NCBI GenBank assembly: GCA_903845055.1 | Contig: CAIMWF010000033.1 | Location: forward strand, 1 to 64,000 | Direction of reading: 5' to 3' | Length of the DNA: 64,000 nt | DNA from: an uncultured Bacteroidales bacterium | Lineage (GTDB): Bacteria; Bacteroidota; Bacteroidia; Bacteroidales; FEN-979 | In this document: in pieces, positions 2 to 14,178 of the stretch | Layout: each line of letters starts with the position of its first letter | How positions within the stretch are numbered: position 1 is the stretch's first letter | The notes under the pieces: model-generated | The model's input: the letters and a program-made list of their open reading frames with translations, nothing else | Told to the model about the DNA's origin: nothing | Databases searched by the model: none | Program-made: the position numbers and the translations under genes

Positions 2-1093
2 CTGGTAGGGGTCACGGTCATCACTTCCGAGTTTGATTTCAGTATTGAAATTCTCCGGACAGCAAAAAAATTCAATCCGGACATCCTGACCATCGCGGGG
101 GGATTGCATGCCACCCTGTGTCCGGGCGATTTTACCGATGCTTCGGTCGACATCGTGATCCCGGGGCAGTGTCCGCATGTTTTCAGGGAGGTTGTCAGGA
201 GAAAGGAGCAGGATGGAAACTTTTCCGAGGTACCCGGGATCCTGATCAATTCATCCTCCGGCCTTAAGAAAACAGCCGGGAAAGCGGCCCCATGGGACGG
301 CGCCGGCGCCGATTACCTGATGCCCGACCGGTCGCACCTGGAACGCTGGATTGATACGTACAAGGTCGGCAACAGTCCGTTTCCCAGCACTTATGTTTTC
401 ACTTCGCTGGGTTGCCCCTACAAGTGCACGTTTTGTTCCATTTGGACCCAGTTCAGGGGAAAATATTACCAGCGCTCAGTCGAGAGCCTGATCACCGAGC
501 TGAAATCGATCCCGGAATACCCGGTCGTGCGTTTTGCCGATGCCAACACGGTCGTGGATGAACAATTCATGATGCAGCTTTTCCGGCGTATCGAAGAGGA
601 GGGCATCCGCAAGACCTTCATCATGGATATCCGTGCTGATGTGGCGGCCCACCGTCCCGACATCATTGAAAAGCTTGCAAAGGGGGGATTGAAGGTGGTC
701 ATTTGCGGCTTTGAATCCTTCCGAGACCAGGAGCTGAAAAAATACCATAAAAATTCACCGGCCATCGACAACCGCCTGGCGGTAGAAGTGTTCCAGCAAC
801 ACGGTATCATGGTGAGGGGAAATTACGTCATCCCAACCGATTACAACCATGCTGATTTTGAGGCGCTTGCCGAATATGCCGATCTGAACCGGGTCGTTTA
901 TGCCGGCTATACCGTGTTGACCCCCATGCCGGGAACGGTATATCACCAGGAGGTAAAGGAAAAGATCACCGATTACGACTACCGTAAATACAACTTTTTC
1001 AACGCGGTTATGAAGACCACCCTGCCGTATGAAGAATTTCATGCACGGGTGGCAAGCCTGTGGCTGATCAAAAAGGGAAATGATGTCATCTGA
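2..1093 (+). CDS. B12-binding radical SAM protein, 5' partial
   Basis: The reading frame is open from base 2, so the gene starts left of the window. The visible N-terminal part is the end of a cobalamin-binding fold, with the typical GGLHAT element near base 100. It is followed by a radical SAM core whose CxxxCxxC cysteine codons lie at 413, 425 and 434 (CPYKCTFC). These residues bind the [4Fe-4S] cluster that cleaves S-adenosylmethionine; cobalamin-dependent members often methylate, cyclise or rearrange unreactive carbons. The C-terminus follows the BchE/HpnJ-like pattern. The next gene, also a B12-radical SAM protein, starts 45 bases on in the same direction, so the two probably form an operon. 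The substrate is unknown; the context suggests a lipid or polyketide chain. Confidence 0.88.
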   Translation: MVGVTVITSEFDFSIEILRTAKKFNPDILTIAGGLHATLCPGDFTDASVDIVIPGQCPHVFREVVRRKEQDGNFSEVPGILINSSSGLKKTAGKAAPWDGAGADYLMPDRSHLERWIDTYKVGNSPFPSTYVFTSLGCPYKCTFCSIWTQFRGKYYQRSVESLITELKSIPEYPVVRFADANTVVDEQFMMQLFRRIEEEGIRKTFIMDIRADVAAHRPDIIEKLAKGGLKVVICGFESFRDQELKKYHKNSPAIDNRLAVEVFQQHGIMVRGNYVIPTDYNHADFEALAEYADLNRVVYAGYTVLTPMPGTVYHQEVKEKITDYDYRKYNFFNAVMKTTLPYEEFHARVASLWLIKKGNDVI

Positions 1094-1105
1094 GTAAAAT
1101 AATCG

Positions 1106-1122
1106 CCGGGAATCATTCCCGG
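1106..1122 (+). other. short perfect hairpin between two radical SAM genes
   Basis: A 7-base arm CCGGGAA, a 3-base loop and TTCCCGG form a perfect inverted repeat in the 45-base gap between the two radical SAM genes. No T-run follows, so it is not a canonical terminator. It could stabilise or process the joint transcript, or be chance. Confidence 0.35.
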
Positions 1123-1138
1123 TTCACAGGGAAACGCT

Positions 1139-2566
1139 ATGCATAAGGTTTTGCTGCTCAATACGAATACTGAAAAACGGCCCTACCCGGTACCGCCCGT
1201 CGGTCTTTGCATGCTGGCAGCCGGCATTGAAGGACTGTACCATGTGAAAGTTTACGACGGTGTCTTCGATGAAGGCAGGAGCCTGGTTTCCCTGGTGGTT
1301 GAATTCGAACCCGATGTTATCGGGTTCAGTATCCGGAACATAGATGATACGGTGGAGGAGCGGCTCATATTTTATATGGATGAAATTCTTGAAAAGTTTA
1401 TCAGGCCGGTCAGGGCGGTTACCGGCGCACCTTTTATCCTTGGCGGGAGCGGCTTCAGCATTTTCCCTGGTGAGATAATGAAGATGACCGGTGCCGGGTA
1501 CGGAATTGCCGGCGAAGCGGAAGAACTGCTGCCCGTGTTGCTCTCCCGGATACTGGGGAAGCAGGATGTATCGGACCTCCCGAATGTATATACCAGCCCG
1601 GGCATGAAGCCAGGGGCAAAACCCACACCAACCGTCCTGAGGCCCGCAGCCAGGGCATTTCCTGAAATCGACCGCTGGGTTGATTTTACACCATACCGGC
1701 AGAAAGGGGTTTATTCGATCCAGACAAAGCGCGGCTGCTGCCATGGCTGCATTTATTGCACCTACCCGTTGATCGAGGGACGGAAATTCAGGCTCCGGAG
1801 TCCGGCCGGAATTGCCGACGAAATTGAACAGGCCTGTCACCGGCTGGGTGAGGTAACCTTTGAATTTGTCGATTCTACATTCAACGACCCGAAGGGTCAT
1901 GCAGAGGATATCTGCCGTGAGATTATCAGGCGAAAGCTCCGTGTCAGGCTGAGGACGATGGGTATCAACCCGCGGCATGCCAGCATGGAACTTTTTGAAC
2001 TGATGGCCTCGGCCGGTTTCGGGCAGATCGATGCAACCCCCGACAGTGCTTCCCCGAAGATGCTGAAAAACCTTGACAAAGGATTTACCCGGGGGCAGAT
2101 TGAGAAAATGGCAACAATGATCAGGAAATCCGACCTGCCCACCATGTGGTTTTTTTTATTTGGCGGTCCGGGAGAGGATGAGGGCACTTTCGGTGAAACG
2201 GTTGATTTCATCGATCGCTTTATCAGTCCGGATGACCTGGTATACATGCACCTGGGGCTTCGGATATACCCGGATACGCCCCTGTATGAAATTGCGGTGA
2301 AAGAGGGAAAATTAACCCCCGGCCAGTCGGTTTTCCAGCCTGCAGCCTATTATTATTCGGATAAGATATCAAAAAACGCCCTCAGGAATATGATCAGGGA
2401 AGTTTCAGCATCCCGTCACAATTGCCTGCCCGCCGACGAAACAGCACCCTCGCCGGCCATGCTCGCCGAGGCCGGTGAAATGCGCAGGATGAACCAGCTT
2501 ACGGAACCGATGTTCAGGACTTTGCTCCGGATCAGAAGACAATGGAAAACCGATGGCAGGATGTAA
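1139..2566 (+). CDS. B12-binding radical SAM protein
   Basis: 475 residues. Residues 1-150 form a Rossmann-like cobalamin-binding domain that starts directly with a beta strand (HKVLLLNTN) and contains the PPVGLCMLAAG segment typical of this class. The radical SAM core follows, with the CxxxCxxC cluster motif around residue 201 (CCHGCIYC), then a TIM-barrel half carrying the FGGPGE segment. The start is the ATG 45 bases after the preceding homologue. The protein is full length for the family, which includes BchE, HpnJ and fatty-chain-modifying enzymes. It ends 10 bases before the convergent acyltransferase stop. The substrate is not evident. Its location beside ACP, ketosynthase and acyltransferase genes suggests it acts on an acyl chain; that part is inference. 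Confidence 0.9.
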   Translation: MHKVLLLNTNTEKRPYPVPPVGLCMLAAGIEGLYHVKVYDGVFDEGRSLVSLVVEFEPDVIGFSIRNIDDTVEERLIFYMDEILEKFIRPVRAVTGAPFILGGSGFSIFPGEIMKMTGAGYGIAGEAEELLPVLLSRILGKQDVSDLPNVYTSPGMKPGAKPTPTVLRPAARAFPEIDRWVDFTPYRQKGVYSIQTKRGCCHGCIYCTYPLIEGRKFRLRSPAGIADEIEQACHRLGEVTFEFVDSTFNDPKGHAEDICREIIRRKLRVRLRTMGINPRHASMELFELMASAGFGQIDATPDSASPKMLKNLDKGFTRGQIEKMATMIRKSDLPTMWFFLFGGPGEDEGTFGETVDFIDRFISPDDLVYMHLGLRIYPDTPLYEIAVKEGKLTPGQSVFQPAAYYYSDKISKNALRNMIREVSASRHNCLPADETAPSPAMLAEAGEMRRMNQLTEPMFRTLLRIRRQWKTDGRM

Positions 2567-2576
2567 TGGTGACGCT

Positions 2577-3533
2577 TTATTCTGCGGGTGGCAGGTTGCC
2601 GAGTGTGTAAAACCGGTAGTTACCCTCCACAAATTTTGAGTTTTTTACAAGCCCGTTCGAAGGTCCGCATTCAACAAACATATTTACTCCGTTTTGAACC
2701 ATCACCTCCTGCGTGTTCAGCCAGTTGAGCGGGCAACACAGGTTCCGCACCACTTCGTTACGCAACGCTTCCGGGGTTTGCAGGATTTTTTGATCCACCA
2801 GCGATACAACAGGGTTCGCGGCGGGTTGAAATCCGATCGCTCTGATTTTCCGTGCGAAATCAAGAGAGCCCTGTTCAAGCAATCGTGAATGGTATGGCAG
2901 CGATACGCCCAGGTCGCGCGTATGAAGCGCCCCCTCTGCGGCAGCCAGTTCCAGGAGTTTACGGACATCCCCCCTGTACCCTGAAACCACGAACGAGTGA
3001 GAGGCATTCCGGTTGGAAATGGAGGCCTCCAGGTTGTGGTTCCCGATCAGGTCGGTGAGGTCATTACCACTGAGTCCGATGATCGTGCCCATGGAAAAAT
3101 GGTCGTGCGGAAGGGAATCCCGCATGGACTGGTAGGCGATTTGGATCAGTTCAAGACCCGATGCAAAGGTGATGGACCCTGCGTCGAATAATGCGGCATA
3201 GATCCCCATACTGTAGCCCGCGGTCAGGACGGGCCGGAACTTCAACTTTCGCAGGATCCCGGCGGCCGTAGATGAATAGATGTAGGTGAGGTACTGCGTT
3301 CTGAGTTCATCATTTTCAAAGGTCTCCCCGCTGAACCCGAAATGTGAAAGCACGGGATCAATGGTTGCCGCGGCGATTGCCAGCCGGGACTGAAAATCCC
3401 GGTTGAACCCGGGAAGGTTTTCCCCGGAATGGTTGCGGTAGCCCTGGGCGAAGGCTGCAAAAATGAATGACTGACGGGAATCGGGTAAACAGTCCGGAGA
3501 ATTAACGCTCGAATTCAAGAAGCCGGTTTTCAT
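2577..3533 (-). CDS. FabD-like acyltransferase (discrete AT)
   Basis: 318 residues, similar over its length to malonyl-CoA:ACP transacylases, which load acyl units onto carrier protein. The nucleophile elbow is GYSMG (GHSLG in FabD) and the catalytic histidine lies in LPYHSRLL. At the place of the FabD arginine that grips the malonyl carboxylate (RGxxMQ), this protein reads IAYQSM, so the arginine appears to be absent. That suggests a mono-acyl or unusual substrate rather than malonyl. The ATG at 3533 is preferred to a TTG six bases upstream. The start overlaps the end of the ACP gene by 32 bases, so the two are translationally linked. Cytoplasmic. Function as an acyltransferase is well supported; specificity is inference. 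Confidence 0.82.
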   Translation of the reverse strand: MKTGFLNSSVNSPDCLPDSRQSFIFAAFAQGYRNHSGENLPGFNRDFQSRLAIAAATIDPVLSHFGFSGETFENDELRTQYLTYIYSSTAAGILRKLKFRPVLTAGYSMGIYAALFDAGSITFASGLELIQIAYQSMRDSLPHDHFSMGTIIGLSGNDLTDLIGNHNLEASISNRNASHSFVVSGYRGDVRKLLELAAAEGALHTRDLGVSLPYHSRLLEQGSLDFARKIRAIGFQPAANPVVSLVDQKILQTPEALRNEVVRNLCCPLNWLNTQEVMVQNGVNMFVECGPSNGLVKNSKFVEGNYRFYTLGNLPPAE

Positions 3534-3810
3534 GTTCAATGATCAGCAACTGCATCTCAATGAGTTGGCCGATGGTGGAAACGGGATGTTTCACTGCGTA
3601 TTTTCCAATGGTTTTCAACTCAATGTCAAGATGATACTTTTTCTTGAAAATTTCTATCAGTTCCAGGAACATCAGCGAATCACCGTCAAGGTCGCTGATT
3701 ATATTAGTTTCGTTGGTGATCCGGGATACGTCGGTTTCACATTCTTCTGCAAAGAAATTATAGACAATCTCTTTCACCTCCGCCTTTATGCTTTCTGTAA
3801 TTGTAGCCAT
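3502..3810 (-). CDS. acyl carrier protein
   Basis: 102 residues from the ATG at 3810; a TTG seven codons upstream is less likely. It has the ACP four-helix pattern with the phosphopantetheine attachment motif DGDSL, Ser45, followed by the acidic helix that docks partner enzymes (FLELIEIF). It is somewhat longer than housekeeping AcpP (about 78 residues) because of a C-terminal tail of about 20 residues. Its stop lies inside the acyltransferase gene, so this ACP is very likely the dedicated carrier for the neighbouring AT and FabF-type ketosynthase. The growing chain would be tethered here in the cytoplasm. Confidence 0.92.
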   Translation of the reverse strand: MATITESIKAEVKEIVYNFFAEECETDVSRITNETNIISDLDGDSLMFLELIEIFKKKYHLDIELKTIGKYAVKHPVSTIGQLIEMQLLIIEHENRLLEFER

Positions 3811-3890
3811 GTCTGTTAAACTTTCGTGCAAAAATATAATTTTTATTGATTAACCATCTTTTACAGGCAGGCAAAACATCATGTTACCGC

Positions 3891-4508
3891 CTATTTTTTT
3901 TCAAGTCGTTGTTTAAGCCCGCAGATAACTTTAACGGGCGAATCAACAATCAGCATGTTGGAGAGCCAATCCGGGATATTCCCCGCCGGGTCGACATGAC
4001 CTTCGAGGACCACGTGCGATAGCTCATTCCCGGCAGGTCTGATGGTCCAGGTTTGCCGGTAACTGGTGATCCTCACCATGTCACTTTTCTCGGGAATGAA
4101 GCCAGGCAAAGGCAATGCGGTGATCGTCCGTACGCCAGTCAGCGGGTCGATGGAGATGGTTACGTCCACGCAAAGGTCCCGGTTCGTAACAGGCCATGGC
4201 AGGTTATAAACAAGGTAGTAACGCGCGCTTTTAAATTTTTCATATTGCAGCACCTTGATCCGGGTAAGATTTTTATCCCACCAGTCCGTATTGTTGACAT
4301 TTTCAATAAGCGCGAAAATTTTTTCAGCCGGTGCATGGATATCGGTCTCACCCCGGTATGATTTTACCGTTTTCCCGGCCTCCGTGCACGTATAAATCTT
4401 AATGCCCTCTTTTTCTTTGATAAAAGTCCATGACTGTGCCGCCGATGAGCCTGGAAGGACCAGTAAACACAGGATTGAAAAAATGAACCGGGTACAGGAA
4501 TTTGTCAT
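3891..4508 (-). CDS. secreted START-domain lipid-binding protein
   Basis: 205 residues. Residues 1-24 are a clear Sec signal peptide ending in SSAAQ, so the protein is exported. The rest matches the START/Bet v1-like fold: the opening SWTFIKEKEGIKIY, the central segment with IHAPAEKIF, and PWPVTNRD, a hallmark of bacterial START proteins. START domains hold a single lipid or hydrophobic ligand in a deep cavity. It lies between the FabF and ACP genes, 91 and 80 bases from them, on the same strand, so it is probably part of the same transcript. A reasonable guess is binding or transport of the locus product in the periplasm; that is inference. Confidence 0.82.
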   Translation of the reverse strand: MTNSCTRFIFSILCLLVLPGSSAAQSWTFIKEKEGIKIYTCTEAGKTVKSYRGETDIHAPAEKIFALIENVNNTDWWDKNLTRIKVLQYEKFKSARYYLVYNLPWPVTNRDLCVDVTISIDPLTGVRTITALPLPGFIPEKSDMVRITSYRQTWTIRPAGNELSHVVLEGHVDPAGNIPDWLSNMLIVDSPVKVICGLKQRLEKK

Positions 4509-4599
4509 GACATCTGCGGTTTGATCCGGAATAACGACAATACCGATTTTCCCTCGAATATGGGTTAACCCCGGCGGTTCACAAATTTTCCAGCCGAAA

Positions 4600-5820
4600 T
4601 CAGGCTGTGTATTTTTTTAATACAAGAATGGCGTTGTGGCCTCCAAAGCCAAAAGAATTCGACATGGCTGTGCGGATATCCTTGATTCTCGGAATATTCG
4701 GCACATAGTCAAGATCGAGGTCGGGGTCGGGATTGCGGTAGTTGATGGTGGGAGGGAGAATCCCTTCCCTGAGGCTCATCGCGGTGATGATTGCCTCGAT
4801 GGCCCCCGCCGCCCCGATTGTATGGCCGATCATCGATTTGGACGATGATACGGGTATTTGACCGGCCAGTTCGCCGAAAACCTTTTTAATGGCCATGGTT
4901 TCGTACCGGTCGTTCAACTCGGTGGAGGTTCCATGGGCATTGATATAGCCAATCTCCTCACGGCCGACGCCTGCATTCTTCAGCGCAAGTTCCATCGTGC
5001 GGGCCATCCCTTCGCCATCCTTCATGGGTGCCATGATGTTGTAGCCTTCGCTGGTAAGCGCATAACCCGCGACACCTGCATGGATGCGCGCGTTGCGTGC
5101 ATGCGCGTGTGCTGCCGATTCGAGAATGAGAACCCCGGCACCCTCCCCGATGACGAAACCGTCGCGGTCGCCCGAAAAGGGCTTGCTTGCCTGGCCGGGA
5201 GGGTCGTTTGCAACGGAAAGAGCGTATAACGCATTAAATCCGTTGATCTCCTCCGCATTGATGATGGAATCGGCTCCACCAACAATGACAATATCCGATT
5301 GCCCGTTCCTGATCATTTCATACCCGAAGGCGATGGCATACGCAGAGGATGCGCAGGCAGTGTTTACGGCAAAGTTCGGCCCCGTCAGTTGGTACTCGAG
5401 CGAAATCCATGCCGGCATCGAGTTGGTCATGGATTTGAATACCGTATTTTGAAGGTTGGTATCCCTCTCTGCGCTGGAGTTGCCCGTGTTGACCACGCCC
5501 ATGATCACACTGCACCGCGTCCGGTCTGCCTCTTCAAACGAAATGCCTGCATCTTCCACGGCTATTTTAGCGGCGGTGACACACATCCGGGTGACCCGGG
5601 TCATCTGGCTGGCGGCACGTTTTTTAATATAACGGCGCGAGAGTTCCTCGAATTCCGCGGGCACCTCGGCTGCGATCCTGGTCGCACAGGAAACCGGATC
5701 GAACAGGGTTATGTGCCGTATACCGCTTTTACCGGCAATCAGGTTTTTCCAGTTTTCCTCCAAAGACAAACCAAGGGATGAGATAATTCCCATCCCGGTG
5801 ATGACAACTTCTTCAGGCAT
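4600..5820 (-). CDS. beta-ketoacyl-ACP synthase II (FabF-type KS)
   Basis: 406 residues, full length for KAS I/II. The complete Cys-His-His triad is present: Cys156 in NTACASSA, His296 in NAHGTST and His333 in SMIGHTIGAAGA, with the conserved lysine in SSSKSMIGH. It would condense malonyl-ACP with an acyl chain by decarboxylative Claisen condensation. It starts 7 bases after the stop of the haem-protein gene, so the two are cotranscribed from the promoter near 6245-6271. It is followed by START, ACP and AT genes on the same strand, so it is a locus-specific ketosynthase rather than the housekeeping copy. No chain-length-factor partner lies next to it. Confidence 0.93.
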   Translation of the reverse strand: MPEEVVITGMGIISSLGLSLEENWKNLIAGKSGIRHITLFDPVSCATRIAAEVPAEFEELSRRYIKKRAASQMTRVTRMCVTAAKIAVEDAGISFEEADRTRCSVIMGVVNTGNSSAERDTNLQNTVFKSMTNSMPAWISLEYQLTGPNFAVNTACASSAYAIAFGYEMIRNGQSDIVIVGGADSIINAEEINGFNALYALSVANDPPGQASKPFSGDRDGFVIGEGAGVLILESAAHAHARNARIHAGVAGYALTSEGYNIMAPMKDGEGMARTMELALKNAGVGREEIGYINAHGTSTELNDRYETMAIKKVFGELAGQIPVSSSKSMIGHTIGAAGAIEAIITAMSLREGILPPTINYRNPDPDLDLDYVPNIPRIKDIRTAMSNSFGFGGHNAILVLKKYTA

Positions 5821-5827
5821 TTTGTGG

Positions 5828-6220
5828 CTATTTCTGCAAACTATTGGCCCACTTGCAAATCATCTCAACCTCGGCCGGGGTCGGGAGCTTATCAGGATTA
5901 TTTTTACGCCATTTTCCCGGGGGCATCGAATTCTTGCTGACCTCTTTACAGATTTCCTTCGCTTTATCCATCTGTTTTGAGGCATCATATTTATCCCACC
6001 CTGAGAAGTTGACCTTGCCTTTGGCCATGAAATTCCCGTCGTCGGAATGGCAGTCCATGCAGGCTCTCTGGACAAACTTATGAATGCTGTCGGGCAGCGC
6101 CGTGCCGGAAACAGTGGGCTTGCTTTCTTTTGAACCGTTTGCAGCCTGCAGGTTGAACACAACCATCACGGCAAACAATACGCTTACGGAGGTAAGCGTT
6201 ATTAACACGAGTTTTTTCAT
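5828..6220 (-). CDS. periplasmic c-type haem-binding protein
   Basis: 130 residues. It begins with an uncleaved or cleavable hydrophobic segment (residues 4-27), so it faces the periplasm. A single haem c attachment motif CMDCH lies near residue 54, and the likely axial methionine is in NSMPPGKW. This matches the small haem-binding domain found in many Bacteroidota. It leads the transcript that continues 7 bases later into the FabF gene, with a near-consensus promoter just upstream. Cotranscription of an electron-transfer protein with a ketosynthase is unusual. It might deliver electrons to a membrane or periplasmic redox step, but no partner oxidase is visible in the window. Confidence 0.85.
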   Translation of the reverse strand: MKKLVLITLTSVSVLFAVMVVFNLQAANGSKESKPTVSGTALPDSIHKFVQRACMDCHSDDGNFMAKGKVNFSGWDKYDASKQMDKAKEICKEVSKNSMPPGKWRKNNPDKLPTPAEVEMICKWANSLQK

Positions 6221-6241
6221 TGTAAACAGGTTTATTTTTTA

Positions 6242-6271
6242 CAAAGATAACCAAGATAAATGTTGCACAAA
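6242..6271 (-). promoter_or_regulatory. Bacteroidota-type promoter for the haem/FabF/ACP operon
   Basis: On the minus strand a TTTG (6271-6268) and a TATCTTTG (6249-6242) are separated by 18 bases, a near-perfect match to the TTTG / TAnnTTTG promoter of this phylum. Transcription would start about 15 bases before the haem-protein ATG. Confidence 0.75.
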
Positions 6272-6374
6272 AAAAAATACGGACATTTGCTGCATCTCTT
6301 TAATTTTAACCGGCCTGTGAGGCTGGTAAGGAGAATGCTATAACCTTAACCTTCATTATTAACCGATTAAATAC

Positions 6375-6812
6375 ATGGCAATTATGCGTCAACTGAATTA
6401 CATCACCGTGGTAATTTTCCTGTCGGTATTTTTTTTATTTTCCTCCTGTAGTAAAAATAACAGCACGCCGGGCGTTGACCAGAAACCGTCGCTCACCTTT
6501 ACGACCCTGAACGGGTATGTTTCCACGGATGCAACCCTTGGCATAAGCTCCCCCTTCAAGGTCGGGCTTTGGGCTGCCTCGAATACCAATTCCGCGGCAA
6601 AGCTTACCAGGCTGACCGTAAGGAGGGTATTTAACAATAATACCATCAGCAACGACACTACCTTCAGCACCAGTGCCCTTCACCTTGACATCAATGCAAC
6701 AAGCAATTCAGGGATGGGAAAGGAGAAATGGTATTTCAGGATCACGGATGATAAAAACCAGTACAGGGAACTCAGCCTGACCATCACTACCATCGTCACC
6801 CTGGGGAAATGA
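6375..6812 (+). CDS. small lipoprotein of unknown function
   Basis: 145 residues (142 if the second ATG, at 6384, is used). The N-terminus is a lipoprotein signal with a run of hydrophobic residues and lipobox FSSC at about Cys25, followed by Lys/Asn, which in Bacteroidota is compatible with export to the outer membrane. The mature part is Thr/Ser/Asn-rich with a beta-strand pattern and no recognised enzyme motif. It is transcribed divergently from the haem/FabF operon, about 150 bases away, and converges on the 3-hydroxyacyl-CoA dehydrogenase gene. I do not recognise the family, and a link to the surrounding lipid locus is only positional. Confidence 0.7.
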   Translation: MAIMRQLNYITVVIFLSVFFLFSSCSKNNSTPGVDQKPSLTFTTLNGYVSTDATLGISSPFKVGLWAASNTNSAAKLTRLTVRRVFNNNTISNDTTFSTSALHLDINATSNSGMGKEKWYFRITDDKNQYRELSLTITTIVTLGK

Positions 6813-6832: not shown

Positions 6833-7891
6833 TTAATCCTCGAAAAGAAGCCTCTCAAGGGGGCTGAGTTCAATTCCAAAATATTCCTCAATGGCATGAA
6901 TCACCTGGTTTGGGGAGAGGGAGGATTGTACTGCAAATTTCTTGCAGGTTTCAAACCAGGTCTGTCGCAGGTACTCTTCAATTTCGGAAGCATGCGCCGG
7001 ATCCGGGCCGGGTGCTTCGGTAACCGGGTATTGATAAAATCCTTCGCGGGTTTTAACCCCAAGTTTCCCGGCGGCCACCAGTTTGTCCAGGAAGGCAAGG
7101 AACCGTTCGAATCGTTCCCGGTCAGGGTAATCACGCGAGTAGTTCCTGACTGAGTTCGCCATGGTGTCCAACCCGACACTGTCGCAGAAGTCAAAGACAC
7201 CGAATGGAAAAAAATTCTTTTTAACCAGCCGGTCCATCTGCGAAAAGGTGCATTCGTCGTCCTGAACGATCCTGAAGGCCTCATTCTGGAATTCCAGGAA
7301 TATTTTATTGAGGATAAAACTGTTTTTTTCGTCCAGGGTGATGAAACTGCGGCCGATCGTGTGGAGGAAGGATTCAATCTCCTGGTGCACTGCCGGTGAT
7401 GTATTGGGACCAGGTGTAAATTCGACCATGTTTTTCAGCGAAACAGGGTAGAAGAAATGCAGTCCGGCAAACGGTCTCGTGCTGCCAGCCTTCACAAGGT
7501 CCGATGGTTTTATGGAAGATGAATTGGAGGTGAAGATACAACCGGGCTGCACAAAGGTGTCTAGTAGCAGGAACAGTTCCTGCTTCATGGCAAGCACCTC
7601 GGGGATGGCCTCAATAATAAGGTCGCAGTTGTACAGGGTGCGGGGATCTTTCGTGATGATCGTTCTCAGCAGCAAATCCTGATGTGACATGTTGCCTGCT
7701 CCGCCCTCTGTAGTCCGTTTGATGCGCTTTTCAAATTGCCGTAAAAGTTTTTCCAGGTCGGCTTCAGCGCTACAGACCCAGACAATTTCAAAATTAAAAC
7801 CGGAAAGAAAATAGAGGATTCCGGAGCCCATTTTGCCTTCGCCTATAATGCCGACCTTGCGGATTGAGGAGGATTGACGGGGAGTGGACAC
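6833..7891 (-). CDS. 3-hydroxyacyl-CoA dehydrogenase
   Basis: 352 residues. Residues 11-190 are the NAD-binding Rossmann domain (glycine motif GEGKMG). The catalytic His sits in GLHFFYPV and the paired Glu in MVEFTP. The C-terminal helical domain (about 195-290) has the family patterns FILNKIF and GVFDFCD. It oxidises or reduces 3-hydroxyacyl-CoA/3-oxoacyl-CoA with NAD. The best start is GTG at 7891; no ATG lies before the Rossmann motif. The gene sits 31 bases after the radical SAM gene, and the spacer is an ATTAAAA tandem repeat. Next to two crotonases it could form a beta-oxidation-like or reverse-beta-oxidation module of the locus. Confidence 0.9.
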   Translation of the reverse strand: MSTPRQSSSIRKVGIIGEGKMGSGILYFLSGFNFEIVWVCSAEADLEKLLRQFEKRIKRTTEGGAGNMSHQDLLLRTIITKDPRTLYNCDLIIEAIPEVLAMKQELFLLLDTFVQPGCIFTSNSSSIKPSDLVKAGSTRPFAGLHFFYPVSLKNMVEFTPGPNTSPAVHQEIESFLHTIGRSFITLDEKNSFILNKIFLEFQNEAFRIVQDDECTFSQMDRLVKKNFFPFGVFDFCDSVGLDTMANSVRNYSRDYPDRERFERFLAFLDKLVAAGKLGVKTREGFYQYPVTEAPGPDPAHASEIEEYLRQTWFETCKKFAVQSSLSPNQVIHAIEEYFGIELSPLERLLFED

Positions 7892-7918: not shown

Positions 7919-7922
7919 CGGT

Positions 7923-9485
7923 TTAAACCGGGGGTTGTTGGTTGGGTTCGTTTTTTATCCAGGGACCTTTGTCCTGGTCAAGGATCATTTGCCTGAATTC
8001 TTTCATGTTCCGGTGATGGGAGCGGATATGCCTTGTATAGCCCAGGATCGAGAGCATGAACCCGAGTCCCTTGTCGATGGCGATTCGGTCGGTGCGGATG
8101 AGCCCGATAATAAACCAGAATAGTTTCCTGCGCTCCGGGTCGGTTGAAAGAACGAATTCCTTAAAGGTGATCCACGATAGCCGAACCTTCAGGGAAGCGG
8201 GAATATCGCTTCCGGCCCTTGTGAATGCCCCGTTGCTGAACAACGCTTCCGCCTTGGCCCGTATGGTTTTAAAAGAATAGAGCCGGCTGATGGTTTCCAT
8301 GTATTTGTCGAAAAGGTCAATCTGCGACATGTTCATGTAGTGAAGGGTGGGGAAGTGTCCGACGCCGAGTTCCGGTTCACAGTTGAACAGCCGTCCTTCC
8401 TGTTGGAATTTCCTGTGGGTTTCCGTTCCCGGCGCAGCATTCAGCAGGTGAAGGTTGACATACGGGAGGTTGTGCTCCATCGAAAAGTTAAAAATTCTAT
8501 CAAATTCATCGAGGGTGTCGTTATCGAATCCTACAACAAAACTGGCGCTGATGTGGATGCCGGCCGCATGGATCTTGCGAATGGCCTCTGCATAGATGCT
8601 GCCGCCCCGGTTGTGGTGTTTGTGCGATTCATCGAGGCTTTCAGGATTCAGAGATTCAAAACCGACCAGTATGTTGAAACAGCCGGCATCGGCCATGAGG
8701 GTCAACAGCTCATCATCGGTGGCGACATCGAGGCTGCACATGCATCCCCATGATATTTTCAGCGGGATGATGGCGCGCATCAGCTCCTTGACATACTTTT
8801 TATTGATGGTCAGGTTGTCGTCAACGAAGAAAAGGTACTTGACCGGCGCCGCCTTCAGTTCTTCAACCACATTTTCGACATCGCGGTAGCGCATTTTCCT
8901 GCCGAAGGTTTTGGAAACCAGGCAGAAGTCACAGTCGAACGGGCACCCGCGCGAAACCTGGATGGCCACCTGGAAAACCCGGTTCATATCAACGAGATCC
9001 CACCGCGGTGGCTTCTGTGACTTGTAATCCACGTATGTCTGCGTTTCATAAACCGGCTTCAGGCACCCGTTTTCGAAGTCGGCCAGGCATTCCTCCCATT
9101 TACCCTCCGCTTCGCCAACCACCACGCTGTCGCCGTGTTTCAGCGCCTCTTCGCGCGTGTACGAGGCAAATGGTCCGCCATACACCACTTTGGCGCCCAA
9201 CGCCCGGTAACGGTCGCCGATTTCAAAGGCCCTTCTTCCCGTGGCGTCGATGGTAGTGATGCCGACAATATCAGGCCTGGCGTGACCGGGCAGTTCACCA
9301 ATCTCCTCATCGAAGATGCTGATATCATAATGACCCGGGGTAAGCGCTGCGATGGTGGGCAGCGCCAGCGGGATCATCGGCCGTCTTTTTCCAAACATCT
9401 TTGCCAATTCGCTGTTCAGCGGGTAATTGACATATCGCTGCTTCGGACTGATTAAAAATAGGGTATATCGTTTTCTTAAAGGCAT
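7923..9485 (-). CDS. B12-binding radical SAM protein with DUF4070-like C-terminus
   Basis: 520 residues. The N-terminal cobalamin-binding domain (about 1-150) contains the YGGPFAS segment. The radical SAM core has CPFDCDFC near residue 191 and the FVDDNL motif typical of this group. The C-terminal 120 residues resemble DUF4070, found in B12-radical SAM proteins related to HpnJ. The ATG at 9485 is followed at once by the first beta strand. It is the third cobalamin-dependent radical SAM protein of the locus and lies between the FabH-like synthase and the dehydrogenase on the same strand. The reaction is unknown; likely candidates are methylation, ring formation or rearrangement of an acyl chain. 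Confidence 0.9.
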   Translation of the reverse strand: MPLRKRYTLFLISPKQRYVNYPLNSELAKMFGKRRPMIPLALPTIAALTPGHYDISIFDEEIGELPGHARPDIVGITTIDATGRRAFEIGDRYRALGAKVVYGGPFASYTREEALKHGDSVVVGEAEGKWEECLADFENGCLKPVYETQTYVDYKSQKPPRWDLVDMNRVFQVAIQVSRGCPFDCDFCLVSKTFGRKMRYRDVENVVEELKAAPVKYLFFVDDNLTINKKYVKELMRAIIPLKISWGCMCSLDVATDDELLTLMADAGCFNILVGFESLNPESLDESHKHHNRGGSIYAEAIRKIHAAGIHISASFVVGFDNDTLDEFDRIFNFSMEHNLPYVNLHLLNAAPGTETHRKFQQEGRLFNCEPELGVGHFPTLHYMNMSQIDLFDKYMETISRLYSFKTIRAKAEALFSNGAFTRAGSDIPASLKVRLSWITFKEFVLSTDPERRKLFWFIIGLIRTDRIAIDKGLGFMLSILGYTRHIRSHHRNMKEFRQMILDQDKGPWIKNEPNQQPPV

Positions 9486-9548
9486 ATCCGGAAACTACAA
9501 TTGTGTATAAACTTTTTTATTCGAGTTACCAAGATACAATAATTATCC

Positions 9549-9569
9549 AGGCAACAGGCAATAGGCAAT
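9549..9569. repeat. AGGCAAY heptamer tandem repeat, three copies
   Basis: AGGCAAC, AGGCAAT and AGGCAAT follow one another exactly, in the non-coding spacer between the radical SAM gene and the FabH-like gene. Confidence 0.7.
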
Positions 9570-9590
9570 ACAACATACTATTCCCTAATT

Positions 9591-9622
9591 TCGCTACCTC
9601 GCTACCTCGCTACTTCGCTACC
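9591..9622. repeat. TCGCTACC octamer tandem repeat, four copies
   Basis: Four 8-base units (TCGCTACC, TCGCTACC, TCGCTACT, TCGCTACC) run into the 3' end of the FabH-like gene. The gene's TAG stop (9620-9618 on the minus strand) is supplied by the first unit that the ribosome meets. The same octamer occurs again at 22823-22846. Confidence 0.85.
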
Positions 9623-10742
9623 TTTTTTCTATCACATATCCTGCCTGCATGAATTTGCTCACTTCGGTCACGAAGCTTACGACGAGATCGCCCGGGTTGA
9701 AGGTTTCCTCTTTCCTGATCCTGTCGAGGCAGAGGAGTGCCATCGGGGGACCAATGTAGCCCATTGAAGACATCTTCGTCCACAGCGTCTTCCGGTCGAT
9801 ACCAAGCACGGCGCATTCATCCATGATCAGTTCCGAGATATGCTTTGATGGAAAATTGACCTGGAAGAATTTTATCCTGCCAGGGTCGATGGGATGGAGG
9901 GCCAGCATCCGTTCCAGGCCGTGAATGAAAACAGATCCGCCCGACTCATGAAAATTGGCACGGAGCTCCTCCTGGAACATCTGCGCCAGGTGATGGTATC
10001 CGAGTTCAAATTCCTTCGCCGGATTCATGAAATAGGCCGGGCGCCTGTTGCCCATGGCGGAGGGTTTGAACCCGCCTGCCGATTCGATGTAATTGTATTC
10101 GATGAACAATCCGTCGCGATGCTGGTCCGACGCCTGCAAAACCACGGCTGCAGCGCCGTCGCTGAGAAAATAACGTAAAAAAAGTTCTTCTTTCTTCACG
10201 ATGGGCTGGTTGTAATATTCAGCAACCAGTTCCGACGAAGAGATACCCGATGAGATGACCAGCGCATTCCGGTACCTGCCGTTCCTGACCAGGTCGGAAC
10301 CAAGCAGCAACGCCTTGTAGGCCGAAGTACAATTGGCATGCACCGAAATTTCGGCACACCGTTCGATGCCCAGGGCCTCCTGTATACGCACGCTGGCCGT
10401 GGGCATCTGGTCCTGGTGGGCACTCCCGTATACAATCAGGTCAATGTCACCGGCTTTGAGACCGGCATCGGCTATGGCCTCTTTCGCAGCCTTGGCCGAC
10501 ATGGTAATGTTGTCCTCTGTGAATTCACGGGTTACCGGGTCAATGGCAAAATGGTAATAATCCACCTCCAGCATTTCCTTCATGAGGATTCTCACCCGGG
10601 TGAGCCATTTTCGGATCTTTTCGGGGGCCCCGGTCAGATTGCCGAGGTAATGGTCAACCTCATCGGCAGGGATGGGTTTCCCGGGGAGAAACGAGCCGCT
10701 CCCGGTTATTTTTACAAATATGTCACCATGTTTTTCAGGCAT
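9618..10742 (-). CDS. beta-ketoacyl-ACP synthase III-like protein
   Basis: 374 residues, thiolase fold of the KAS III group but about 50 residues longer than FabH. The nucleophilic cysteine is in HANCTSAYKAL. At the position of the FabH HQAN histidine the sequence reads FQVN, and the later catalytic Asn segment (GNTSAAS) reads GYIGPP. The usual His and Asn therefore seem to be missing or shifted, possibly to the His of PSKHI. It may start or join chains, or act as an acyl-transferring or non-decarboxylative variant. HMG-CoA synthase was considered and does not fit. The gene lies 44 bases after the first crotonase stop on the same strand; its own stop codon falls in an octamer repeat. Confidence 0.8.
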   Translation of the reverse strand: MPEKHGDIFVKITGSGSFLPGKPIPADEVDHYLGNLTGAPEKIRKWLTRVRILMKEMLEVDYYHFAIDPVTREFTEDNITMSAKAAKEAIADAGLKAGDIDLIVYGSAHQDQMPTASVRIQEALGIERCAEISVHANCTSAYKALLLGSDLVRNGRYRNALVISSGISSSELVAEYYNQPIVKKEELFLRYFLSDGAAAVVLQASDQHRDGLFIEYNYIESAGGFKPSAMGNRRPAYFMNPAKEFELGYHHLAQMFQEELRANFHESGGSVFIHGLERMLALHPIDPGRIKFFQVNFPSKHISELIMDECAVLGIDRKTLWTKMSSMGYIGPPMALLCLDRIRKEETFNPGDLVVSFVTEVSKFMQAGYVIEKR

Positions 10743-10786
10743 CTCTTGCCGGATTATTTTATCATGTTTTTTTCGGCAGGCTCATT

Positions 10787-11524
10787 TCAGTCCTGCACCT
10801 GTTTTTTTCGCCGCAGGTATTTTTCAATATAAACCTGCCTGAATTCCACATGGAAAGGTTCGGGCAGGGAGATCGCCAGGGTCAGCGCAATGTCCTTCAG
10901 TTCGCGTTTCGGTACCACGGCATCCACCATGTTCAGGTTCCCTGCTTCGGTTGCAGGCAGCGTCATCCCGCGAAGGATAAGTTCCAGCGCCCTGGCCTTT
11001 CCTGCCAGGGTCACCATCCGCCCGATTCCGCCAATCCCCGGCATGAGGTTGAAGGAGGTTTCGGGCAGGCCGATCACGGCGTCATCGGAACAAATCCTGA
11101 AATGACTGAAGAGTGCGAGTTCAAATGCCGAACCGAGACAAACCCCGCCGATGGCTGAAATGACGGGAACATTCATTTTCTCAAGTTTTTGAAAACACCG
11201 GTAATTTTCAAGCATCGACTCGTTGGACAAATTTGCCAGCAATTCGGACAGATCGGCCCCCGACGAAAAATGACGGCCGTTCCCGTGAATGATGATCGCC
11301 TTCAGTCCTGCATCATCCGATACCGAGTCAACCCAATCACTGAACTCACGGAAGAACTGAATTGTCATCTGGTTGGAGGGGGGCTGGCCTATCCTGAGCC
11401 AGCCAACGCGGTTTTCGGTATGCCACCGCAGGGTTTGATAACCGTGTGATGCAGCCACACCGCCAGCCTGGGGTTTTGCTCCCGCTGATTTTCCATTGAA
11501 TATTTCCAGCACGTTTTCAGTCAT
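10787..11524 (-). CDS. enoyl-CoA hydratase/crotonase family protein (copy 1)
   Basis: 245 residues from the ATG at 11524, which overlaps the upstream crotonase stop by 8 bases; a longer frame upstream would overlap too far. Crotonase hallmarks are present: the oxyanion-hole segment SSGADLSEL, the second oxyanion region GVCLGSAFELAL with the first catalytic-type Glu, and GLPETSFNLMPGIGG with the second. Family members hydrate, dehydrate, decarboxylate or isomerise acyl-CoA or acyl-ACP thioesters. It shares little with its neighbour beyond the core, which suggests two different steps. The AFE in place of the usual GGxE spacing around the second oxyanion glycine is a mild deviation. Confidence 0.88.
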   Translation of the reverse strand: MTENVLEIFNGKSAGAKPQAGGVAASHGYQTLRWHTENRVGWLRIGQPPSNQMTIQFFREFSDWVDSVSDDAGLKAIIIHGNGRHFSSGADLSELLANLSNESMLENYRCFQKLEKMNVPVISAIGGVCLGSAFELALFSHFRICSDDAVIGLPETSFNLMPGIGGIGRMVTLAGKARALELILRGMTLPATEAGNLNMVDAVVPKRELKDIALTLAISLPEPFHVEFRQVYIEKYLRRKKQVQD

Positions 11525-12314
11525 TTCCAATGTTTGATGCAGGGTTTGTCGTAAGGACCGTGTTATTTTCCTCCGTTTTCCGCCTGGCCGATTCATCCGC
11601 CGCAAGTTCGCAAAAAAGCCGGACCTCCCCGGCAGCAGCCTCTTCCCGACCAAGTAAAATACTGTTCCTGATGGCTGTCATGACATGTCGGATCACCTTC
11701 ACCGGGCGTTCCCTGGTCATCTTCAGCATCAGTTCCAGCGAATATTCCCAGGCTTTGTCCTTCGGGGCGATATGATCGACCAGCCCGATCTCCCTGGCCC
11801 GGGCAGCGGAGACAATGTCACCTCCCAGGATCATCCTGGCCGACTGAAAGGTGCCTGCAATAGCGGGAAGGCGGTATGTGCCGCCCATTCCCGGCATCAG
11901 ATTGAGGTTGACTTCGGGAAATGCCAGCAATGCATTTTCAGAGGCAACCCTGAAATGACACGCCAGTGCGATCTCGAGGCCTCCGCCGAAACAGACCCTG
12001 TTGATGGCTGCAATGACCGGTATGTCCATAAGTTCGATGTATCGGAGCAGTTCGTGTCCCTTAACCATTACATCCTCCAGTCCGGCCGGCTGACCGGCAA
12101 GGGTGAAAATCTTTCCAAGATCTCCGCCGGCCGAAAAATTTCTCCCTTCTCCTCGGATGATCAGTCCCTTCAGCGTTTCATTATTTAACCAGTCCTGCAA
12201 AAGGGGCAGGGGAATAAATTCGGGCAGCGGTAAATAATTTTCCGGCGGATCGCTCAGGGTCAGGATCCCGATCGATTCAATAATTTCAAAGGTCACATTT
12301 TTCCCGTAGTACAT
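11517..12314 (-). CDS. enoyl-CoA hydratase/crotonase family protein (copy 2)
   Basis: 265 residues from the ATG at 12314. A TTG nine bases upstream is less likely. Conserved elements are the SAGGDLGKI oxyanion segment, GVCFGGGLEIAL (canonical GG and Glu) and AFPEVNLNLMPGMGG with the second Glu, so hydratase-type chemistry is possible. It begins 12 bases after the thioesterase stop and overlaps the other crotonase by 8 bases, so the genes are tightly cotranscribed. Tandem crotonases recall the paired ECH genes of beta-branching polyketide cassettes, but the HMG-CoA-synthase-like member that would be expected beside them is not recognisable. Confidence 0.9.
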   Translation of the reverse strand: MYYGKNVTFEIIESIGILTLSDPPENYLPLPEFIPLPLLQDWLNNETLKGLIIRGEGRNFSAGGDLGKIFTLAGQPAGLEDVMVKGHELLRYIELMDIPVIAAINRVCFGGGLEIALACHFRVASENALLAFPEVNLNLMPGMGGTYRLPAIAGTFQSARMILGGDIVSAARAREIGLVDHIAPKDKAWEYSLELMLKMTRERPVKVIRHVMTAIRNSILLGREEAAAGEVRLFCELAADESARRKTEENNTVLTTNPASNIGND

Positions 12315-12326
12315 GGAGAACAAATT

Positions 12327-12722
12327 TTAAATAAGTTCAAGGATTGCAGCCGGGACCTCCCCGGCGATCCTGTCTTTGCCAAGAAAAATCAGCTTTGTTG
12401 TTGCCCTTGCCGAGGGCAGATTTGTGGTCAGGTTGGTAATCTTCTGCTGAAAAACAAGATAGGGTTTTTCCTCAAAACAAAAAGATTCGACCGACAATTC
12501 GTCGAAAAGCCTGATTTCCCGCTGGTAACGGATATGAATATCGGTCACGACCGGGAAATTGTCATCCTCCTTCAGAAACCCGTATAAACCCAGTTCCCGG
12601 AAATATTCCCACCTGGCATGTTCGAAATAATTCAGGTATACCGCATTGTTTATATGATTATACGAATCAAGTTCGTAACCCCGGGCTGTAAATGTGATGG
12701 TAATTTTTTTCGCCATGGTCAT
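12327..12722 (-). CDS. 4-hydroxybenzoyl-CoA-type thioesterase
   Basis: 131 residues with a single hotdog fold. The signature ELDSYNHINNAVYLNYFE matches the 4HBT/YbgC family, in which the aspartate after the first strand activates water or forms an adduct; here that acidic residue is Asp in LDSYNH. It would release an acyl chain from CoA or ACP. Its ATG overlaps the TGA of the hotdog dehydratase gene (ATGA, 12719-12722), which implies coupled translation. A second ATG two codons in is possible. It is probably the chain-release or editing step of the locus; substrate unknown. Confidence 0.88.
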   Translation of the reverse strand: MTMAKKITITFTARGYELDSYNHINNAVYLNYFEHARWEYFRELGLYGFLKEDDNFPVVTDIHIRYQREIRLFDELSVESFCFEEKPYLVFQQKITNLTTNLPSARATTKLIFLGKDRIAGEVPAAILELI

Positions 12723-13102
12723 TCAGGTTCAAATATTCCTTTAAACTTTAAAAATACCGTTTCACCGGAAATGATGGATGCGGTCACTGAATGTAACTGG
12801 TTCGTCGCCGGCTTGATGATGACCTTCAATTCGACAAGGGGAGCCTTTTCGGGATTGATGATGGCCAGGAATTTGATATTGTCCGATTCGACAAGCCTGA
12901 CCGGGCGGCCGAGCGCCATTTCAACCACCTCCCTGATCATCTGGACCTGGCATACGCCGGGTACTACCGGATTGCCGGGAAAATGTCCCCCGAAAATGGG
13001 GTCGGCAGGATTAAGTGCCGCAATCATCACAAATTCCTGCAGGGCATTATCAGGGTCAGGTATTGTAAACGACTGAATATCATAGAAACTACCGGAAAGC
13101 AT
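12719..13102 (-). CDS. FabZ-like hotdog protein, catalytic Glu replaced by Gln
   Basis: 127 residues from the ATG at 13102. A TTG 33 bases upstream falls inside the likely promoter -7 element and is not preferred. The dehydratase motif GHFPGNPVVPGV is intact, with the catalytic His. The position of the second catalytic residue, Glu in FabZ (VEALAQ), reads VQMIRE, so Gln stands there. It may still bind beta-hydroxyacyl-ACP and dehydrate slowly, or isomerise, or act as a structural partner. It is the first gene of a tight minus-strand run: hotdog, thioesterase, two crotonases, FabH-like. Fold assignment is firm; activity is uncertain. Confidence 0.85.
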   Translation of the reverse strand: MLSGSFYDIQSFTIPDPDNALQEFVMIAALNPADPIFGGHFPGNPVVPGVCQVQMIREVVEMALGRPVRLVESDNIKFLAIINPEKAPLVELKVIIKPATNQLHSVTASIISGETVFLKFKGIFEPE

Positions 13103-13132
13103 TTTCAAAAACCTTTTATAATTGTTAAAGGG

Positions 13133-13140
13133 CAAAAATA
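13133..13140 (-). promoter_or_regulatory. promoter -7 element TATTTTTG for the hotdog-to-FabH operon
   Basis: The minus strand reads TATTTTTG here, matching TAnnTTTG, about 30 bases before the ATG at 13102. I see no convincing TTTG at the -33 position, so this is moderate evidence only. Confidence 0.45.
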
Positions 13141-13301
13141 GGGAAAAATATTTACTGTTATATAGATAGCGGATAACGGTTTTAAATGGGGGAGAGGTAC
13201 CATGATGCAGGCTGTTTGCTTTGAAGAATGGAAAAGTGCAGCACCTGGTCTGTTTTATCCTTCATATGAAACAAAAAACCACTAATTTCGGCCCCCTTAA
13301 A

Positions 13302-13329
13302 TCGTCATTCGTCAATCGTCATTCGTAAC
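13302..13329. repeat. TCGTCAT heptamer tandem repeat abutting a start codon
   Basis: TCGTCAT, TCGTCAA, TCGTCAT and TCGTAAC are head-to-tail 7-base units. The last base is immediately followed by the ATG of the short-chain dehydrogenase, so the whole translation-initiation leader of that gene is repeat. Confidence 0.75.
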
Positions 13330-14178
13330 ATGAACTCCCTACCCCTCAGCAACAAAGTCATCCTCGTTACCGGTGCCTCCTCCGGGATCGGTGCAGCGGC
13401 AGCCAGGGCATTCAGCGCCGCCGGGGCGAAGGTCGCAGTTGCCTCGCGAAGGAAAGAAAAGCTTGAACAACTGGCCGCCGGGATGAACGATTCGCTTGTC
13501 ATCGGCGTCGACCTGAGCCTTGAAAACGAGGCCAGGGAGATGATCAGGCTGGTGGTTGCCCATTACGGCCGGATTGACGTACTGGTCAACAATGCAGCTG
13601 CGATCATTGTCGACCGGTCCGACTCGGTTAAAAGCGCCGACCTGATCAATGCCTTCCGCACCAACCTGGTTGCGCCGGTTGTGGCGACCCAGGAGGCCCT
13701 GGTCTCCATGCGGAAGCAGGGTGGGGGTCAAATCATCAATGTCGGATCGCCCGGTTTCATGATGGGGATTCCATTTTACGCCCCTTATGTTTGCTCGAAA
13801 GCCGCCCTTTCGGCATGGACCCGTACCATCCAGTCCGAGTGGGCCGGTTCGGGAATCACGGTCAGTGAGTATTTCCCGGGGTACATAGCCACCGATTCGC
13901 TCCCCGATTCAAGGCTTGGCAACGTGGAGCAGGATTTCCTGATGGAAGAGCACCAGAATTTCATCGCAAAAATGTTCACCAAACCCAAAACCCCTGATCA
14001 TGTTGCACGGCAGCTGGTGCAGCTGGTCATCCGGCCGCGGGCCATCACATACTCCGATTTCGGGGTAAAGATCGGTGCCTTTATTTCAAACATCAGTGGT
14101 TTCAGGCTGGCCATTGCACGGCAGATGGCTTCGACGGCCAGGAAAAAGAAAAATCTAACCATGTTCAGCGGGCAATGA
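13330..14178 (+). CDS. short-chain dehydrogenase/reductase (SDR)
   Basis: 282 residues, classical SDR. The cofactor motif TGASSGIG lies at residues 15-22, NNAA at about 90, the catalytic Tyr and Lys are in YVCSKAAL, and the Ser is in INVGSPG. NADP is likely, given the basic residues after the second strand (ASRRKEK). SDRs of this type serve as 3-oxoacyl-ACP reductases or act on sterol-like or aliphatic alcohols. A C-terminal extension of about 40 residues with two hydrophobic stretches could bring it to the membrane. It is divergent from the hotdog/thioesterase/crotonase operon and faces the EXPERA protein gene downstream, so it may be the ketoreductase of the locus. Confidence 0.9.
   Translation: MNSLPLSNKVILVTGASSGIGAAAARAFSAAGAKVAVASRRKEKLEQLAAGMNDSLVIGVDLSLENEAREMIRLVVAHYGRIDVLVNNAAAIIVDRSDSVKSADLINAFRTNLVAPVVATQEALVSMRKQGGGQIINVGSPGFMMGIPFYAPYVCSKAALSAWTRTIQSEWAGSGITVSEYFPGYIATDSLPDSRLGNVEQDFLMEEHQNFIAKMFTKPKTPDHVARQLVQLVIRPRAITYSDFGVKIGAFISNISGFRLAIARQMASTARKKKNLTMFSGQ

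Follow-up and report, generated by a model that had tools for sequence, protein, structure and literature searches.

Flexirubins and ladderanes are lipids whose gene clusters come closest to the locus described here. According to the main text of the Chitinophaga pinensis study (PMC3992019), the flexirubin polyene cluster of that bacterium runs from flxA to flxY, and FlxA and FlxY were shown there to have tyrosine ammonia-lyase and 4-coumarate ligase activity, respectively. For Kuenenia, passages in Rattray et al., 2009 (PMC2649909) and Javidpour et al., 2016 (PMC4790861) describe radical S-adenosylmethionine (SAM) enzymes, phytoene-desaturase-like enzymes, phenylacetyl-CoA ligase, glycosyltransferase, methyltransferases and FabF paralogs; the same passages describe a syntenic Desulfotalea cluster and report that no ladderanes were detected in extracts of that organism. 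Ladderane-type clusters also occur in several non-anammox phyla, where the relevant passage of a Cariaco Basin study gives their function as unknown (PMC9902471), and a passage in a 2026 preprint describes the role that cobalamin plays in radical SAM enzymes that form rings, including ladderane synthase, as speculative (PMC13142503). In the open-licence PMC literature searched, no paper came up that describes flexirubin or aryl-polyene clusters with B12-radical SAM enzymes. Here we analyze a locus that combines the two, at positions 2-14178 of a 64,000-nucleotide stretch of DNA (the window) from an uncultured Bacteroidales bacterium (assembly GCA_903845055.1, contig CAIMWF010000033.1, below C33). 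We put at roughly 55% the probability that it belongs, as one module, to an aryl-polyene lipid cluster of the flexirubin type in probably anaerobic bacteria, where it would build a second acyl unit in a two-part assembly. On the best reading, a new module for acyl assembly and B12-radical chemistry occupies the place expected for the dialkylresorcinol synthase.

Linkage to flexirubin-type genes

The window starts at base 1 of C33 in a draft genome of 3.95 Mb (G000; 175 contigs, 95% complete), and the initial 141 bases match the final 141 of contig C149 exactly, apparently as an overlap in the assembly graph. The frame of rSAM1, a B12-binding radical SAM gene, runs across this overlap from position 17324 of C149 (L004:17324) to window position 1093. 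The locus thus continues to the left, as a sequence-only reading of the window had stated, and a fourth B12-radical SAM enzyme, rSAM0, joins the three in the window. Further along C149, an AMP-ligase scores as FlxY with 717.1 bits (cut-off 520) and a BtrH protein as DarH with 321.7 bits (cut-off 300); a DarG-like protein stays under its family cut-offs. A profile scan of 10 open reading frames on a further contig, C99 (L038), identified FlxA (823.1 bits, cut-off 700), FlxB (393.8, cut-off 340) and another DarH (395.4, cut-off 300). C99 also carries a FabF-type ketosynthase (KS) and a fifth B12-radical SAM enzyme, which passes the model TIGR04072 at 411.7 bits (cut-off 360).

These pieces are contiguous in one relative, G020, where C99-type genes, the window block and C149-type genes run from FlxA (176968) to FlxY (233002) over 56 kb. 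In another, G008, FlxA, FlxY and the most distinctive enzyme of the block, a KS-III-like protein related to StlD and DarB (KS-III; 9618..10742, reverse strand), share one contig within about 73 kb. FlxA and FlxY, two marks of a flexirubin cluster, are both present, on two contigs in G000 and in one cluster in G020; for another mark, DarB, no protein exceeded the family cut-off.

We then asked how these genes are distributed among the window's own genome and 40 relatives. FlxY orthologs are present in 26 of the 41 genomes, and FlxA orthologs (at least 53% identity) in the same 26. KS-III occurs in 21 genomes, all of them among these 26, and in none of the remaining 15; a full-length rSAM2 ortholog (at least 54%) is found in 17. 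DarB (NF053539) exceeds its cut-off in 0 of the 41 genomes; DarA was not searched for. Because the 41 genomes are related, these counts do not represent independent events.

To look more widely, we scanned a KS-III alignment over one genome per species (GTDB), which gave 109 relatives, and kept the best 80 (59-82% identity). Thirty-two of the 80 genomes, picked for spread, were checked for the starter genes: FlxA orthologs (at least 56%) are present in 20 and FlxY orthologs (at least 59%) in 22, and two more genomes carry 39-45% relatives of FlxA and FlxY side by side. Neither this physical and phylogenetic tie to FlxA and FlxY, nor the altered active site of KS-III, nor the spread to Spirochaetes and other phyla was foreseen by the sequence-only reading.

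Gene content, spread and active sites of the block

All of the proteins that had been named at 2-14178 are present with intact frames, three B12-radical SAM enzymes among them, and most have clear Pfam or NCBIfam matches. The 3' part of rSAM1 (2..1093; B12-binding and Radical_SAM in Pfam) and rSAM2 (1139..2566) lie on the forward strand, and the other genes of the block on the reverse strand. These encode a discrete acyltransferase (AT; 2577..3539, start codon uncertain), an acyl carrier protein (ACP; 3502..3831, PF00550), a FabF-type KS (4600..5820), a haem-binding protein of the Haem_bd family (5828..6220, PF14376), a 3-hydroxyacyl-CoA dehydrogenase family protein (3HCDH; 6833..7891), the HpnJ/BchE-like rSAM3 (7923..9485; Pfam and NCBIfam), KS-III, crotonase a (ECHa; 10787..11653, start codon uncertain, overlapping the next gene), crotonase b (ECHb; 11517..12323), a 4HBT hotdog thioesterase (12327..12722) and a FabA/FabZ-like hotdog dehydratase (12719..13135). 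The sequence-only reading had noted no enoyl reductase in the window, a negative for which no search aimed at that enzyme was made. Their B12-binding and radical SAM domains, with the CxxxCxxC motif, predict that the radical SAM proteins are cobalamin-dependent, although the B12-binding Pfam matches of rSAM1 (28.9 bits, cut by the window edge) and rSAM3 (31.2) fall just under the cut-off of 32.1. An rSAM1 ortholog is nearest to the HpnR and BchE models, far under their cut-offs. AT lies under its Pfam cut-off (E value 0.015) and scores 138.8 and 120.2 bits with MdcH and FabD models, also under their cut-offs; it matches a FabD structure at an E value of 1.2e-25. When the FabF-type KS was used as a query against phage records, 29 records were returned, all below 60% identity.

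The gene order of the block is unchanged in the relatives that we fetched. In the flanks of the 80 KS-III loci we found relatives of ECHa in 74, ECHb in 72, the thioesterase in 66, 3HCDH in 60, KS in 55, ACP in 42, rSAM3 in 41, AT in 40, rSAM1 in 31, the hotdog dehydratase in 30, the haem protein in 27, rSAM2 in 23 and rSAM0 in 6. Since many loci end at contig ends and the identity limits differ from gene to gene, these numbers are lower bounds. This synteny bears out the proposal of a discrete, conserved lipid- or polyketide-type locus; we saw neither a scattering of its genes among relatives nor housekeeping roles for them. The proposal had been drawn too wide at three points. The START protein (3891-4508), the SDR (short-chain dehydrogenase/reductase; 13330-14178) and the EBP/EXPERA protein (14242-14748), all assigned by family match, have relatives in 0, 3 and 2 of the 80 loci, so that we rejected them as core parts: START is no part of the block, and SDR and EXPERA are only loosely linked to it. 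A lipoprotein gene (6375-6812), present in none of the mapped related loci, and the genes from 14767 on (M23 and later), which are flanking genes, were rejected likewise.

The titles of the 80 KS-III records describe 77 metagenome-assembled genomes (MAGs) and three bins of uncultured bacteria. Most are titled Bacteroidales or Bacteroidetes, and the others include Spirochaetes (6), Chlorobiota (2), Neomarinimicrobiota, Calditrichaceae and a delta proteobacterium. In a KS-III tree of 41 of the 81 sequences (the 80 and the window's own), the six Spirochaete sequences form one group (91/75), with the Calditrichaceae and delta sequences paired apart from them (100/100). One locus, L079 (SACF01000019.1), comes from a record titled Alphaproteobacteria bacterium INTA.CYC.164. 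That title looks wrong, since the genome (G338) has the same FlxA and FlxY places as G006, a member of the window's genus. Two others, L063 and L064 (DYSO01000063.1 and DYQT01000049.1), are third-party annotation MAGs titled Draconibacterium orientale, a species name that may be a binning label.

KS-III condensing enzymes typically have a Cys-His-Asn triad, and we compared these residues across all 81 KS-III sequences; residue counts for the other proteins cover the 80 loci. The nearest solved structure to KS-III by sequence is StlD (E value 7.5e-17), which also ranks first in a fold search with the AlphaFold model (pLDDT 87.1; TM score about 0.8). The StlD/DarB bit score is 102.6, and KS-III reaches 80.6 bits with the DarB model, whose cut-off is 550. 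The Cys is kept in 81/81 sequences. Structure 5gk2 carries a mutation of StlD His302; the residue aligned with that His is Asn in 80 sequences and Asp in one, and the position that we take to be that of the FabH-type Asn, placed through the StlD alignment, is Tyr in all 81. KS-III therefore keeps the Cys of the triad with His and Asn replaced; three other histidines, His250, His251 and His301, are invariant.

The acyltransferase is altered as well. A malonyl-CoA:ACP transferase carries a Ser-His pair and a malonyl-binding Arg. Ser and His are conserved in 40/40 AT sequences, and the position that we assume to be that of the Arg, placed via the FabD structure alignment, is occupied by Ala in 38 sequences and by Ile or Val in the other two, so AT lacks the full residue set of a malonyl-CoA:ACP transferase. 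Most other sites are intact: the KS retains its Cys in 55/55 sequences and His/Lys/His in the 54/54 that cover them, both catalytic Glu residues are kept in ECHa (74/74) and ECHb (72/72), as are the catalytic His/Glu of 3HCDH (60/60) and the phosphopantetheine Ser of ACP (42/42). CxxxCxxC is found in every ortholog of rSAM1 (31/31), rSAM2 (23/23) and rSAM3 (41/41), and CxxCH in every haem protein (27/27). The hotdog dehydratase is mixed, with its His in 30/30 and, at the second catalytic position, Q in 14, E in 8, R in 6 and other residues in 2; the window copy has Gln in place of the usual acidic Glu.

Proposed function and its rivals

Putting these data together, we propose the following scheme, in which substrates, order of steps and product are read from gene families and active sites. 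In Bacteroidales, an aryl-polyene acyl chain would be started from tyrosine by the tyrosine ammonia-lyase FlxA and the 4-coumarate ligase FlxY, and built by the C99-type half with its ketosynthases, carriers and FlxB reductase. The half in the window would use its own ACP to assemble a second acyl unit: the putatively non-malonyl acyltransferase may load the starter, the FabF-type KS may extend it, and 3HCDH with the two crotonases, which are beta-oxidation-type enzymes, could set the 3-keto, 3-hydroxy and 2-enoyl states. The B12-radical SAM enzymes would methylate or cyclise this unit without oxygen. KS-III, acting through its Cys without the classic triad, might transfer or join chains in place of the dialkylresorcinol synthase, and a BtrH/DarH-type acyltransferase could join the parts or place the product, which ABC exporters and, in relatives, MMPL-type exporters would carry to the envelope. 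StlD is classed among the dialkylresorcinol ketosynthases, so it is natural to hypothesise that a ring forms when a keto chain is joined to an enoyl chain, but the loss of His and Asn from KS-III disfavours a simple copy of the dialkylresorcinol reaction. The product may be cyclised or branched, and the hosts probably live anaerobically, judging from the oxygen-sensitive enzymes and the names of isolates. A bolder version, which we consider rather unlikely, is that the product is an anaerobic membrane lipid or pigment of a class not seen before, in which a tyrosine-derived aryl polyene is joined to a ring-bearing, possibly fused or strained, second unit made by the four B12-radical SAM enzymes and the StlD-like KS with its rebuilt site, and that in Spirochaetes the module for the second unit also functions by itself, its range covering, to judge from the record titles, at least four phyla of uncultured bacteria.

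Several observations weigh against a module tied to an aryl-polyene cluster. In G000 itself the two halves of the cluster sit on different contigs. Three of the 19 genomes of the window's genus have FlxA and FlxY without KS-III, so the module is dispensable, and rSAM2 is missing from four of the 21 genomes with KS-III. Ten of the 32 KS-III genomes checked (six Spirochaetes and four others) have no FlxA ortholog, and the aryl-polyene link is therefore not universal; three of the four others do have a FlxY ortholog. In none of the six Spirochaete genomes did we find an ortholog of FlxA or FlxY, bearing in mind that draft genomes can miss genes.

The Spirochaetes give most weight to a rival explanation, that the module makes a lipid of its own, such as an acyl chain with methyl branches or a ring, and lies beside aryl-polyene genes by chance in Bacteroidales. 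Four of the six Spirochaete loci hold the thioesterase, both crotonases, KS-III, 3HCDH, AT, ACP, KS, rSAM1, rSAM2 and a BtrH/DUF4872 gene; a fifth holds part of the block and ends at a contig edge, and the sixth has the crotonases and KS-III only. With whole blocks in four of these genomes and FlxA and FlxY found in none of the six, the module can probably work alone, and the block does not seem bound to an aryl-polyene starter. A chance neighbourhood, however, fits poorly with the strict nesting of KS-III within the FlxA/FlxY-positive genomes among the 41 relatives and with the single shared cluster in G020, and we regard this rival as possible with the odds clearly against it.

A second rival is a ladderane-type pathway, in which a polyunsaturated acyl chain made anaerobically is cyclised by B12-radical SAM enzymes, as proposed for anammox bacteria. 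The sequence-only reading had pointed to ladderane loci, and this likeness held in part. The best NCBIfam model for rSAM2 is indeed TIGR04072, 'rSAM_ladder_B12', a full member of which is encoded on C99, and the desaturase-like flavoenzyme, PaaK-like ligase, GT2 glycosyltransferase, methyltransferase and, in relatives, MMPL protein belong to classes described for Kuenenia and Desulfotalea in the passages cited above. But rSAM2 is a diverged relative that, at 306.9 bits, stays under the family cut-off of 360; the Kuenenia list in those passages (PMC4790861) has no AT, crotonases or 3HCDH; FlxA and FlxY point to an aromatic starter; and Desulfotalea, despite its similar cluster, gave no ladderanes in the extracts described (PMC2649909). 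A ladderane pathway is thus doubtful.

We find it improbable that this is a standard flexirubin or aryl-polyene cluster in which the radical SAM genes are ordinary tailoring genes and nothing is new. FlxA, FlxB, FlxY and DarH over their curated cut-offs would fit such a cluster, but the lack of DarB over its cut-off in all 41 genomes would not. Among 296 evenly sampled Bacteroidota genomes, with up to five candidates scored per genome and no other genome of the window's family included, FlxA exceeds its cut-off in 25 and TIGR04072 in only one, the window's own genome; rSAM0, sought in the same sample, had no match above 37% outside that genome. Furthermore, in the C. pinensis study the main text does not contain 'cobalamin', and has 'radical' only as radical cation (PMC3992019). 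Neither 'ordinary flexirubin' nor 'ladderane locus' accounts for all results.

A beta-branching polyketide cassette of the 3-hydroxy-3-methylglutaryl-CoA (HMG-CoA) synthase type would bring the same enzyme classes together in one operon (AT, ACP, KS, HMG-CoA synthase and two crotonases), but the decarboxylating KS of such cassettes typically has no Cys, unlike the KS here with its Cys in every sequence, and KS-III is nearer to StlD/DarB than to HMG-CoA synthase (33.5 and 36.1 bits with its models), so we rejected this very improbable explanation. Weakest is a fatty-acid breakdown operon with extra genes, suggested by the beta-oxidation types of the crotonases and 3HCDH and rejected as scarcely credible, since a carrier, KS, AT and radical SAM enzymes stand in the same conserved order and no acyl-CoA dehydrogenase is found among the proteins of the block.

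Under the preferred reading, a second-acyl-unit module of a flexirubin-type cluster, the results suggest a DarB-less counterpart in uncultured, probably anaerobic bacteria of the flexirubin-type lipids known from Flavobacterium and Chitinophaga. The module is a defined gene set that recurs in many genomes, at least once within a contiguous 56-kb cluster, and its aromatic starter (tyrosine to coumarate) is open to testing. It also offers targets for assay, namely a ketosynthase without the usual catalytic residues and B12-radical SAM enzymes. Its wider relevance lies in the ladderane-like clusters of non-anammox bacteria, whose function is given as unknown in the passage cited at the outset (PMC9902471).

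Neighbouring genes and comparison with known systems

Leftward from rSAM1, C149 encodes a GT2/DUF2062 glycosyltransferase, the phytoene-desaturase-like flavoenzyme, rSAM0, 136-aa and 595-aa proteins, an O-methyltransferase and an ABC-2 permease, followed by the DarG-like protein, the BtrH/DUF4872 acyltransferase, an ACP and the AMP-ligase, and then by an amidohydrolase, DUF6580 and MutL. The gene for the 136-aa protein (L004:12410-12820) adjoins rSAM0 in six of the seven loci, among the 80, that have it, and in the seventh a contig end interrupts the locus; a model of six orthologs predicts an alpha/beta fold (pLDDT 81.6) that matches nothing in the PDB at an E value of 0.001 or below. The 595-aa protein (L004:10578-12365) has no match in Pfam, NCBIfam or PDB sequences. 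It is 71-86% identical among the relatives that have the gene, which lies outside the 56-kb run of G020, and we saw no ortholog in the related loci fetched around KS-III.

Relatives add genes that we did not find in the cluster of the window's own genome: an MMPL-acyltransferase-methyltransferase fusion, an AAT-type acyltransferase, a TonB receptor and a sulfotransferase, none with a match on C149. The fusion protein (L018:9281-13198) is about 1300 aa long and joins an MMPL transporter, a PlsC-like acyltransferase and a methyltransferase; a 49% relative is encoded on C85 of the own genome, apart from the other cluster genes. In G020, rSAM3 (L029:7865-9174) is in two pieces with a stretch missing, through either sequencing error or decay. 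One Spirochaete locus has genes for a 336-aa protein, a 495-aa protein and a PDZ-domain protein between its BtrH/DarG-like genes and rSAM2 (L103:1222-5072); one BtrH gene is in view there, and the neighbouring 336-aa protein matches no reference used.

The flexirubin cluster of C. pinensis and Flavobacterium johnsoniae, as presented in the main text of PMC3992019, resembles the extended locus in having FlxA, FlxB, FlxY, DarH-type genes, several FabF-type KS, ACP, thioesterases, a glycosyltransferase and an exporter, and in G020, as in C. pinensis, flxA and flxY form the two ends of the cluster. It differs in that here no DarB exceeds its cut-off, an extra block supplies AT, two crotonases, 3HCDH and the altered StlD-like KS, four B12-radical SAM enzymes lie in the locus with a fifth on C99, and the hosts are uncultured.

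Compared by the gene classes described in PMC2649909 and PMC4790861, the Kuenenia and Desulfotalea clusters share radical SAM and phytoene-desaturase-like enzymes, a PaaK-like ligase, a glycosyltransferase, FabF paralogs and a membrane protein with a putative lipid transport domain (MMPL, in relatives of the window), and TIGR04072 is itself named for ladderanes. Relative to the Kuenenia list in those passages, a tyrosine ammonia-lyase starter, DarH acyltransferases, a StlD-like KS and beta-oxidation-type enzymes appear only here. At the level of the single enzyme, StlD is nearest to KS-III by both sequence and fold, whereas KS-III has Asn or Asp at the His302 equivalent and Tyr for the FabH-type Asn, and scores far under the DarB cut-off. 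Altogether, the cluster is real, conserved, widely spread and, as far as searched, undescribed, and it is a variant of the flexirubin- and ladderane-like type II lipid clusters.

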